64,000 nucleotides of DNA, taken from the NCBI RefSeq assembly GCF_041320705.1, contig NZ_JBGGTQ010000003.1, positions 496,001 to 560,000 of the forward strand. Reading direction: 5' to 3'. Below the pieces are notes generated by a model. It saw only the letters and a list, made by a program, of their open reading frames with translations, was not told the origin of the DNA and searched no databases. Every line of letters starts with the position of its first letter. Positions within the stretch are counted from its first letter, which is position 1. The DNA is from Kineococcus mangrovi (GTDB lineage Bacteria; Actinomycetota; Actinomycetes; Actinomycetales; Kineococcaceae). Below are positions 30,645-33,511 of this stretch, piece after piece. The translations under genes and the position numbers were made by a program.

Positions 30645-30659
30645 CGTGGACGGCACGCC
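30645..30659. repeat. Left 15-bp target-site-duplication copy
   Basis: CGTGGACGGCACGCC directly abuts the left inverted repeat and recurs with one mismatch at 33497-33511. The identity extends seven further bases outward (CGTCACA), giving 21/22 matching bases with 33490-33511. Confidence 0.75.
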
Positions 30660-30687
30660 TGTGATGTATCCGGACATCGGTGACAGT
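30660..30687. repeat. Left terminal inverted repeat
   Basis: This 28-bp end contains GGACATCGGTGACAGT, the exact complement of the inner 16 bases of the right end. The outer 12 bases differ from the right end at three positions. Confidence 0.8.
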
Positions 30688-30895
30688 CGTGGGATTGAGA
30701 GCGACCGGCAGTAGGGCCGCCGACCGGCCTGACTGCACCGCGACGGACTGCTCGACGCCGGCGTCGCAGGGGGCTCCTCGGCGCGCGGAGCGCACCAGCC
30801 TCGCCATCGCCCTTCCCCACTGCCGGTCGCTCCAAGCCGGTGCCGACGCCCACGACTGCGCGCACGACGCGGGATGTGCGAACGAGCGTGCCGCC
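30688..30895. other. Non-coding left arm of the element
   Basis: About 208 bp between the left inverted repeat and the stop of the first cargo gene. I see no convincing coding frame or transposase remnant. It is downstream of a minus-strand gene, so it may hold that gene's terminator. Confidence 0.5.
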
Positions 30896-31231
30896 TCAGC
30901 CGTCGGAGCCGCCCATGGAGTCGGGTGAGTCGTCGGGTCGCTGGTGCCTCGCTGACTTCGCGCGCCTGGCGAAAACCCAGCCTCCTGCAGCAAAGGCTGC
31001 CGCGACCGGGACCGTTAGGACGGCCACGGCATAGCCGGCGCTGCCGCCTTCCCCATTGCTGCTGGCGGTGACCACGATGGAGTAGATGGCGAAGCCCAGA
31101 AGTACGGCCGTCGCGCCCAGGCAGTAGATGGCGCCGTTGACGTTCGAGCGCATCGGGTTGCCGCGCTTGGTCGAGAAGTACCAGCCGAGACCGGCAACCA
31201 TCGCGATGATCACGAGCGAGGACGTCACCAA
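30896..31231 (-). CDS. Small multi-pass membrane protein of unknown function (element cargo)
   Basis: A 111-residue protein with three hydrophobic segments (about residues 2-18, 33-54 and 65-86) and a charged, Ser/Asp-rich C-terminal tail. Codon use is less GC-biased than in neighbours. It may start at the GTG at 31231. No family is recognised. It is the leftmost cargo gene of the repeat-bounded element. Confidence 0.6.
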   Translation of the reverse strand: MVTSSLVIIAMVAGLGWYFSTKRGNPMRSNVNGAIYCLGATAVLLGFAIYSIVVTASSNGEGGSAGYAVAVLTVPVAAAFAAGGWVFARRAKSARHQRPDDSPDSMGGSDG

Positions 31232-31400
31232 CGGAGCATCTCGGTAGCGGGTGCGTCGGGCGACTTGGGCGGGCGACGATCACTCACACGGGCCCATGAG
31301 CCCTCTCATCCAGTCGGCTTCCAGATGCTCGCCCGTACCCGGCGACAGCTCGCTCTTCGTCAAGACCGCGACCTCAGGGGCCGCTCATGGCCGCGCGCTA

Positions 31401-31444
31401 CGCGGGATGACCGTGCGCTGCGCGCGCACCGCGGGATGACCGTG
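31401..31444. repeat. 15-bp direct repeat pair inside the element
   Basis: CGCGGGATGACCGTG occurs at 31401-31415 and again at 31430-31444, upstream of the phosphatase-like gene. The rest of the 31232-31523 gap shows no gene. A regulatory role is possible but untested. Confidence 0.55.
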
Positions 31445-31523
31445 AGCCCGCGCCGAGCCACGACCTTCCACTGCGGAGTGGCTGCGCGGTGAGGGTCGCC
31501 CGGTGGCCTGGCAGGCTGCCGGG

Positions 31524-32102
31524 GTGATCGTCTACGTGGTCTCCCACCCCGAGGTACTGGTGGACCCCGCCGTTCCAGTGCCGCAGTGGGGTCTGTCGCC
31601 AGCTGGGTACGAGCGGCTGCAGCGGCTGCTGGTGATGCCGTGGGTGCGGTCGGCGTCGTTCGTGGCCTCCAGCGCGGAACGCAAGGCGGTACAGACGGCG
31701 CAAGCGGTGGCCCAGATCAGTCAGTGCGCCGTGCATGTCGAGGAGGAGTTGGGGGAGAACGACCGCAGCGCGACGGGCTTCGTCCCCCCGCAGCAGTTCG
31801 AGGCACTGGCTGATGCCTTCTTCGCCGAGCCCGAGCGCAGCGTGCGCGGATGGGAGATGGCGGCCGATGCTCAGCGGCGCATCGTGGCGGCGGTGGACCG
31901 GGTCTTGGGGGGTGCGCGGCTCGCCGGCGTCCCGGAGGACAGTCAGGTGGTCATCGCCACCCACGGTGGTGTGGGCACCTTGCTGCAGTGTTCGTTGCGT
32001 AGAACAGCGATCGCGCGAAGCTTCGACCAGCCCGGGCAAGGCAGCTGGTACAGCTTCGACAGCTCCACGCACCACGTCCACCACGGGTGGCGCCGGCTGT
32101 AA
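31524..32102 (+). CDS. Histidine-phosphatase-superfamily protein with atypical active-site motif (element cargo)
   Basis: A 192-residue protein with the overall plan of the phosphoglycerate-mutase-like fold: an N-terminal strand IVYVVSHPE, ASSAERKAVQTAQ, ENDRSATGF, and a C-terminal ATHGGVGTLL bearing the second His. The usual RHG tripeptide reads SHP, so the phospho-accepting His is kept but its Arg and Gly partners are replaced. This could be a substrate-specialised branch or a weak enzyme. The GTG at 31524 is preferred because CAGGCT lies six bases upstream, the leaderless spacing seen elsewhere; a GTG at 31503 is the alternative. Confidence 0.75.
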   Translation: MIVYVVSHPEVLVDPAVPVPQWGLSPAGYERLQRLLVMPWVRSASFVASSAERKAVQTAQAVAQISQCAVHVEEELGENDRSATGFVPPQQFEALADAFFAEPERSVRGWEMAADAQRRIVAAVDRVLGGARLAGVPEDSQVVIATHGGVGTLLQCSLRRTAIARSFDQPGQGSWYSFDSSTHHVHHGWRRL

Positions 32103-32332
32103 AGACTGTCTACTCCATGCCGACGGGGACGCGAGCAAGCTCTGGGCGACGTCCGGCCATCGTCAGGTCAGGTCGTTGCCGGCCGTCCGAGATCGCGCAC
32201 AACGCGGCATGAGCGGGCACTGCGCAACCGGCTTGCGTGGTGAGACCCCTCCTGCATCGCGGCTGGGCAGCTGCTGGCTCGAGGCGGGCTTGGCTCCGGC
32301 GGGGTGGGCGACGTGGCCCACGTGGTGCGGGC

Positions 32333-32683
32333 TCAGTTGCCGGGGGCGGAGCCCAGGACGGGGCCACGGTCCTCAGCGCCGAGGTCGGCGGCCTGCTGGG
32401 CGATCTGCTGGAGCGCTGCTAGGTGCGCGGCCAGCCTTCGTCGGCCCTCGCGGCTGAGGGCGATCCACACGCGGGAGCGCTTGCCGACGTGACCGCGGCG
32501 CACGTCGACGAAGCCGGCGTCCTCCAGGGCCGAGACGGTGCGGCTGAGGGTGGAGTCGGTCAGGTGCAGGCGGTCGCGCACGGCCTGGAACTCCGCCTCG
32601 GCACAGCCGGAGAGGAAGGCGGCTACGGCCAGCTTGGTCGGGTGCTGCACGGCCTCTTGCAGCTGCGGCTCGGGAGTGCTCAC
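32333..32683 (-). CDS. Winged-helix transcriptional regulator (MarR/HTH_34-like; element cargo)
   Basis: A 116-residue protein. The helix-turn-helix is FQAVRDRLHLTDSTLSRTVS, followed by ALEDAGFVDVRRGHVGKRSRVWIAL, a winged-helix pattern like the HTH_34 family of small MarR-type regulators. A C-terminal helix (AALQQIAQQAADL) could dimerise. The GTG at 32683 overlaps the stop of the upstream membrane-protein gene (GTGA). It likely controls that shared promoter through the dyads at 33148-33190. Confidence 0.8.
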   Translation of the reverse strand: MSTPEPQLQEAVQHPTKLAVAAFLSGCAEAEFQAVRDRLHLTDSTLSRTVSALEDAGFVDVRRGHVGKRSRVWIALSREGRRRLAAHLAALQQIAQQAADLGAEDRGPVLGSAPGN

Positions 32684-33126
32684 ACCGCACCACGCTGCTG
32701 GTGCGCCAGCCGCCACCACAGGGCGGCTCCGCCGGTGACGCCCCACGTCAGCACCCCCGCCGCCCACCCGACGCCCAGGCCCACGACCAGACCCAGGAGC
32801 AGGGCAGCCAGCTCGGGCAGCTGGCGCAACCAGCGCTGCCGGGACGTGCCGACGGGCAGCTGCACCAGCCCACCAGCACGGCTCGCCACGACCATGAGCA
32901 GCAGGAAGCCTGCAAGGCAGGCCGCCGCGGCGAGGAGGTAGAGCGCCCGCGGCCGCCAGTCGCCGATCGCGGCGGCTCCGCACGCCAGCCCCGCGGCGAA
33001 CAGCGCCCCGGCAGCTGGGGGCAGCCAGGCGGGGAAGGACCGCGGGGCCTGCGCCTGTCGGAGGGCCTGCTCAGCGCGGACCAGGTCGGCACGGGCCCGC
33101 TCGGTGTGCATGGAGGTGTCGTCCAT
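32680..33126 (-). CDS. Membrane protein of unknown function paired with the regulator (element cargo)
   Basis: A 148-residue protein. A polar, possibly helical N-terminus (HTERARADLVRAEQALRQA) precedes four hydrophobic segments arranged as two pairs separated by a basic loop (TSRQRWLRQL). It precedes and overlaps the regulator gene, so the two form a coupled module. Such regulator-plus-membrane-protein pairs are common in actinobacteria, but their function is unknown. ATG at 33126 is chosen because the repeated operator-like dyads lie just upstream of it. Confidence 0.7.
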   Translation of the reverse strand: MDDTSMHTERARADLVRAEQALRQAQAPRSFPAWLPPAAGALFAAGLACGAAAIGDWRPRALYLLAAAACLAGFLLLMVVASRAGGLVQLPVGTSRQRWLRQLPELAALLLGLVVGLGVGWAAGVLTWGVTGGAALWWRLAHQQRGAV

Positions 33127-33147
33127 GACGCCATCCTGATCTATCAC

Positions 33148-33190
33148 TTGCATGTTGCGCAAGAGGTCCGTCAAATGCAACCTCTTGCAT
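33148..33190. promoter_or_regulatory. Paired operator dyads upstream of the cargo regulator operon
   Basis: ATGCAACCTCTTGCAT (33175-33190) is a perfect 6-4-6 dyad. CTTGCATGTTGCGCAAG (33148-33164) repeats the TTGC/GCAA half-sites and contains the palindrome TTGCGCAA. On the minus strand a TTGACG -35-like hexamer (33169-33174) lies between them. This suits autoregulation by the winged-helix protein. Confidence 0.55.
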
Positions 33191-33448
33191 CCGGTGGGCA
33201 CTCGATGTGCCGAGCCATCCGCAGATCGGCATGACCGTGACGTCCGTGACCGTGAAGTCGGGGCCGGCCCGGGTGGGCCGCGGCCTGGCTCCAGCGGTGT
33301 TGCTCGCGTGGCCGGGTCCGCCCATCGACGTGCGCACCGCGTGTGGGTCGCCGGACGCAGGGGGTCCGCGCCGCGCGGTGGCCAGCTGAGGCAAGCCCGG
33401 CGGGCTCCGAAGACCGAGGAGTGTCATCACCACGAGGGCTGGAAGTGC
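33191..33448. other. Non-coding right arm of the element
   Basis: About 258 bp with no supported gene. It lies between the operator region and the subterminal repeat of the right end. No transposase frame is visible. Confidence 0.5.
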
Positions 33449-33496
33449 CACCGATGTCTTGATGCAGAACTGTCACCGATGTCCTGAGACGTCACA
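33449..33496. repeat. Right terminal inverted repeat with subterminal copy
   Basis: The terminal 28 bp (33469-33496) pair with the left end. A second copy of its core, CACCGATGTCTTGA, lies 25 bp inside at 33449-33462, against CACCGATGTCCTGA at 33474-33487. Duplicated subterminal transposase-binding motifs of this kind occur at transposon ends. Confidence 0.75.
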
Positions 33497-33511
33497 CGTG
33501 GACGGCGCGCC
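33497..33511. repeat. Right 15-bp target-site-duplication copy
   Basis: CGTGGACGGCGCGCC abuts the right inverted repeat and matches 30645-30659 at 14 of 15 positions. Confidence 0.75.

Follow-up and report, generated by a model that had tools for sequence, protein, structure and literature searches.

The question raised by this locus is how a block of four genes with transposon-like ends came to lie at positions 30660–33496 of the window (the whole 64,000-nucleotide stretch of Kineococcus mangrovi DNA analyzed here), and what its cargo represents. The block begins and ends with 28-bp terminal inverted repeats (30660–30687, plus strand, and 33469–33496, minus strand) that match at 25 of 28 positions (89%); inverted pairs this good would be expected about 5e-4 (0.0005) times by chance in 3.6 kb of the same composition. 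It is flanked by a 15-bp target duplication, CGTGGACGGCACGCC at 30645–30659 and CGTGGACGGCGCGCC at 33497–33511, whose copies differ in one base (14/15), and an extra subterminal copy is present at the right end (33442–33462). A sequence-only reading had described these features together with a transposase-free interior, and all of them were reproduced: ORF inspection and a domain search of the element detected no transposase ORF within 30660–33496. Compared with sister left ends, approximately 52 bp have been deleted from the left end, including two of three subterminal repeats. The left-end module also contains a 134-bp MITE-like insert (30699–30832) with 18-bp inverted ends (17/18), which is absent from sister left ends; DNA similar to this repeat is present in genome G001. 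To view the locus without the element, we joined the flanks into a 654-base query, which aligned across the join in nine relatives (69–87% over most of its length). In each of the five junction alignments inspected, the element was absent at the join. Because the flanks are contiguous without it in the relatives examined, the element is an insertion.

The genome that hosts the window (G000; 4.36 Mb in 23 contigs) yielded no IS481 transposase in a genome search for rve, which gave no match over the cut-off; the one weak transposase match was of the DDE_3 type. Since a transposase was found neither inside the element nor in the genome, the element can only be non-autonomous. Its right-end module (33225–33496, plus strand, including the subterminal repeat) recurs with 96% identity at C7:120917–121163 in the same genome and with ~90% identity in G006. 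A 6.5-kb element on contig C7 shares both ends and is flanked by an exact 15-bp duplication (CGGCGGCGGGGCCCG), and G006 contains an 8-kb sister element with the duplication GAGCTTGGGCGTGAT (15/15); thus, the target duplications in the three elements match at 14/15, 15/15 and 15/15. No transposase was recognized among the genes scanned in the 6.5-kb and 8-kb elements. A further locus in G006 (L072:7830–10953) holds, in this order, the same left end, a 425-aa IS481-type transposase (211.7 bits against NF033577, below the cut-off of 224), a cassette site, cassettes and the right-end block. The earlier reading had proposed to look for a full IS481-family copy with the same ends; at this locus the outermost right repeat is missing where another left end starts. 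In addition, a similar left end adjoins another IS481-type transposase in G031. The element ends thus appear to match those used by an IS481-family transposase. Taken together, the sister copies, the empty sites and the transposase that follows the shared left end in G006 make a non-autonomous transposon with IS481-type ends, mobilized in trans by a transposase elsewhere, well supported, as had been proposed.

Six left ends (that of the window element and five others) and six right ends could be aligned as fixed modules, bordered on the inner side by a cassette site. On C7 the 6.5-kb element directly adjoins an older, diverged right end (L009:4464–4628), and a left and a right end are directly adjacent in G006; these elements might insert beside the ends of other elements.

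The block had also been described as less GC-rich. Its GC content (0.709) is indeed below that of the right flank (0.764) and the window (0.758), but equals that of the left flank (0.71). As a sign of foreign origin, low GC is weak overall but visible at third codon positions, where the cargo genes (0.84–0.90) differ from neighboring genes (0.96–0.99) more clearly than in total GC. The four cargo genes were as described: two membrane proteins, a histidine-phosphatase-like protein and a winged-helix regulator. What had not been remarked is that five internal recombination-type repeats split this cargo, which is probably part of an integron-like array of cassettes. The repeats are sites of 26–29 bp with the core GCGG[G/C]ATGA, all on the plus strand. 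The first, degenerate copy (30859–30885) marks the inner edge of the left-end module and is followed by cassette 1, a small membrane protein of 110–111 aa (30896–31231, minus strand) with a weak DUF6203 match. Two copies in tandem with a 29-bp period (31392–31418 and 31421–31447) precede cassette 2, which encodes the 199-aa histidine-phosphatase-like protein (31503–32102, plus strand; PF00300, 36.6 bits), in which SHP replaces the family RHG. A fourth copy (32194–32220, core GCGGCATGA) separates it from cassette 3, composed of the 116-aa winged-helix regulator (32333–32683, minus strand; PF13601, 58.5 bits) and a 148-aa membrane protein (32680–33126, minus strand). The fifth copy (33220–33240, core CGGCATGA) forms the inner border of the right-end module. 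PADLOC returned weak matches to regulators and nothing else. In G007 the phosphatase gene is flanked by sites, and in G003 it has one nearby. No site was seen in its vicinity in G008, G009 or G006, and the gene may thus have been captured from a chromosomal copy.

The same sites form arrays elsewhere. The pattern SGCGGGATGAYCGYGM occurs in 48 exact copies in G000, compared with none for the reversed control, and the site was present in all 12 genomes of the family that were searched, with 4–137 exact copies per Kineococcus genome and the maximum of 137 in G001. Across array loci, 156 sites point in one orientation and 0 in the other, whereas the genes between them are divided 88 to 76 by strand. 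These genes have a median length of 170 aa, with boundaries that are approximate because the gene caller was home-made, and the median site spacing is 859 bp. Tandem site copies mostly show 26–29-bp periods. No Rfam match was found in the two arrays searched. Contigs C6, C7, C10 and C16 of G000 end inside cassette arrays and share 130–141-bp ends (98–99%), so its array count is a lower bound. Genome G001 has two very large facing arrays (C1:39191–206228), with plus-strand sites at 39–86 kb and minus-strand sites at 90–206 kb; between array sites of this genome there is also a gene resembling class II tRNA synthetases (PF00152 with OB-fold; L064:6589–7878). An IS110-type transposase is located inside a cassette array on C9 (L044:9167–10516). 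Some IS110/IS1111 elements target attC sites.

The cassettes appear at unrelated places, and identity between copies stops at the site. Five cassettes are present twice in G000 (95–99% identity), and at most of their ends identity shifts at a site. Of 114 alignment ends in the array loci, 47 fell within 40 bp of a site, compared with 10.6% for random positions; the remaining ends were mostly at the recombinase platform or at transposon ends. The identity shared at cassette breakpoints is ~15–25 bp.

A tyrosine recombinase is encoded inside the arrays of G001, G003, G006 and G010, on the strand opposite to the array sites; five copies are 93–95% identical, and broken or partial copies in G001 and G008 are also near sites. 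It scored 53–55 bits against the IntI model (cut-off 265), lower than its own scores against the NCBIfam XerC and XerD models (116–123 bits; cut-offs 335 and 330), and IntI4 was a distant match only. By NCBIfam curated cut-offs the array recombinase is neither IntI nor XerC/XerD, and G000 has separate XerC- and XerD-like genes. In several copies it is neighbored by a divergent gene of 176 aa that belongs to no known Pfam family, and both genes sit between sites like any cassette. The array recombinase was not found in the G000 assembly, although an orphan homolog of the partner gene (85%) occurs there beside array sites with no adjacent recombinase (L011:689–1216; C6:217,689–218,216). Because several contigs end inside arrays, this absence is not firm, and a recombinase copy might sit in an assembly gap. 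Arrays without the recombinase occur in G000 and G007, and in G004 sites are few and a good match to the recombinase is lacking. Another gene, at L039:1027–2088 (C5:371184–372242), was set aside as a cassette integrase, as there is no site near it in G000; it encodes a second, non-array tyrosine recombinase, shared at 60–92% identity by G011 and most Kineococcus genomes.

Relatives of the array recombinase, mostly 66–84% identical, were detected in Cellulomonas, Actinotalea, Tessaracoccus, Micropruina, Nocardioides, Ornithinimicrobium, Amycolatopsis, Rhodococcus and other genera. Their spread is patchy (14 of 395 genomes of the class at E ≤ 1e-70). Outside Kineococcus, the site around these copies was deduced from its strand bias and shows more diversity than within the genus. 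With no motif assumed, CATGCCGC was the most strand-asymmetric of ~22,600 8-mers (114 vs 33 occurrences by strand; 38 vs 3 loci). The motif T[CA]ATGCCGC occurred 71 vs 5 times overall, 51 vs 4 at distances above 1.5 kb and 24 vs 3 beyond 4 kb; its reverse complement (consensus GCGGCATGAgCG) agrees with the core in Kineococcus, GCGGGATGACCG. Versions in 34-bp tandem were present in Nocardioides psychrotolerans (L121) and Actinotalea (L088). The strand bias of both motifs around the gene indicates that sites and recombinase co-occur in one relative orientation.

These data bear on whether the repeats merely mark breakpoints of RecA-dependent or illegitimate short-repeat exchange, with the recombinase as a passenger cassette. 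The recombinase and its partner are flanked by sites as ordinary cassettes are, and arrays without it occur. However, identity of ~15–25 bp is short for efficient RecA exchange, and such exchange would leave unexplained the same core, in one orientation, around the recombinase in other families, out to beyond 4 kb. We consider this explanation unlikely. Still less probable is an ordinary passenger transposon, non-autonomous and of IS481 type, whose internal repeats are incidental (REP-like sequences, terminators or uptake signals). The evidence for a transposon stands independently of the cassette reading, and bacterial genomes commonly carry intergenic repeats. On the other hand, a single site orientation despite genes on both strands is unlike terminators or uptake signals, the cassettes travel as units, with breaks at the site, and the arrays hold a recombinase whose relatives in other genera are surrounded by the same core. 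A true integron (IntI family, attC sites) missed by the models through high GC is the most improbable of these explanations: the array anatomy and recombinase orientation are integron-like and a few CALIN are reported in Actinobacteria (PMC9024848), but the IntI score is far under its cut-off and below the Xer scores, IntI4 is distant, the core differs from GTTRRRY, the genes lack strand preference, and site folding is near background with a slight excess (mean z −0.3 to −0.5; 4–6 of 60 below −2). An attC-like fold, weak at best, was accordingly dropped as a defining trait.

We therefore regard it as likely that 30660–33496 is a non-autonomous, IS481-ended transposon whose cargo consists of three cassettes of an integron-like system. 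The following mechanism may be proposed. The recombinase would recognize the core GCGG[G/C]ATGA, excise cassettes and reinsert them elsewhere, at sites that include those of the transposon ends; the sites of the end modules are candidate equivalents of attI. An IS481-type transposase acting in trans would then relocate whole arrays, bounded by the two end modules, to new chromosomal places, and cassettes would thereby spread on two levels, by recombinase shuffling and by transposition. Given sites without an attC-like fold, conventional double-strand exchange would be as likely as the single-strand route of integrons. Because neither the recombinase nor an IS481 transposase was found in G000, the copy in the window is probably stranded there.

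The arrays resemble those of chromosomal integrons and superintegrons in being long, same-orientation arrays of small, mostly uncharacterized genes, each bounded by a short repeat, as well as in the identical cassettes in different contexts and the tyrosine recombinase encoded within the array on the strand opposite to the sites. They also ride on a transposon, as do Tn402-like transposon-borne integrons. In contrast to integrons, the recombinase is non-IntI by curated cut-offs, the core is not GTTRRRY, strong hairpins are lacking, genes occur on both strands, the carrier is of IS481 type and the hosts are Actinomycetota. Arrays of like-oriented sites, with breaks at these sites, were found, and the system would operate much as an integron does. 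Since two integron-defining features, an IntI integrase and a GTT/AAC-ended hairpin attC, were not found, we do not file it as one. The carrier shares with the IS481 family the TGT-ended inverted repeats with subterminal repeats, and one relative has an IS481 transposase following this left end; the carrier differs in its conserved end modules, which are bordered internally by a cassette site, in its cassette-array cargo and in the many transposase-free copies. In the XerCD/dif (pdif) modules of Acinetobacter plasmids, genes likewise lie between short sites of an Xer-like recombinase; these sites are dif-like and alternate in orientation, whereas the sites described here keep a single orientation and have another core, and the arrays contain a dedicated recombinase.

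The cassette system, rather than the transposon, is the main result. In a large survey, no complete integron and only a few attC clusters were found in Actinobacteria (PMC9024848). We found no paper on this cassette system in the openly licensed literature, a scope that leaves out preprints and most subscription journals, and an integron-like system across actinobacteria has apparently not been described so far. The broader proposal, which we favor slightly, is that Actinomycetota have independently evolved cassette capture with a distinct Xer-like recombinase and short GCGG[C/G]ATGA sites rather than hairpin attC, and that Kineococcus arrays are carried on IS481-type transposons, with capture and spread performed by different enzymes. 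If this is true, gene capture in cassette arrays reached, or arose in, a major bacterial group via another recombinase and site, and many uncharacterized cassette genes become visible. The defined pair of recombinase and site would then be directly testable and comparable with IntI/attC.
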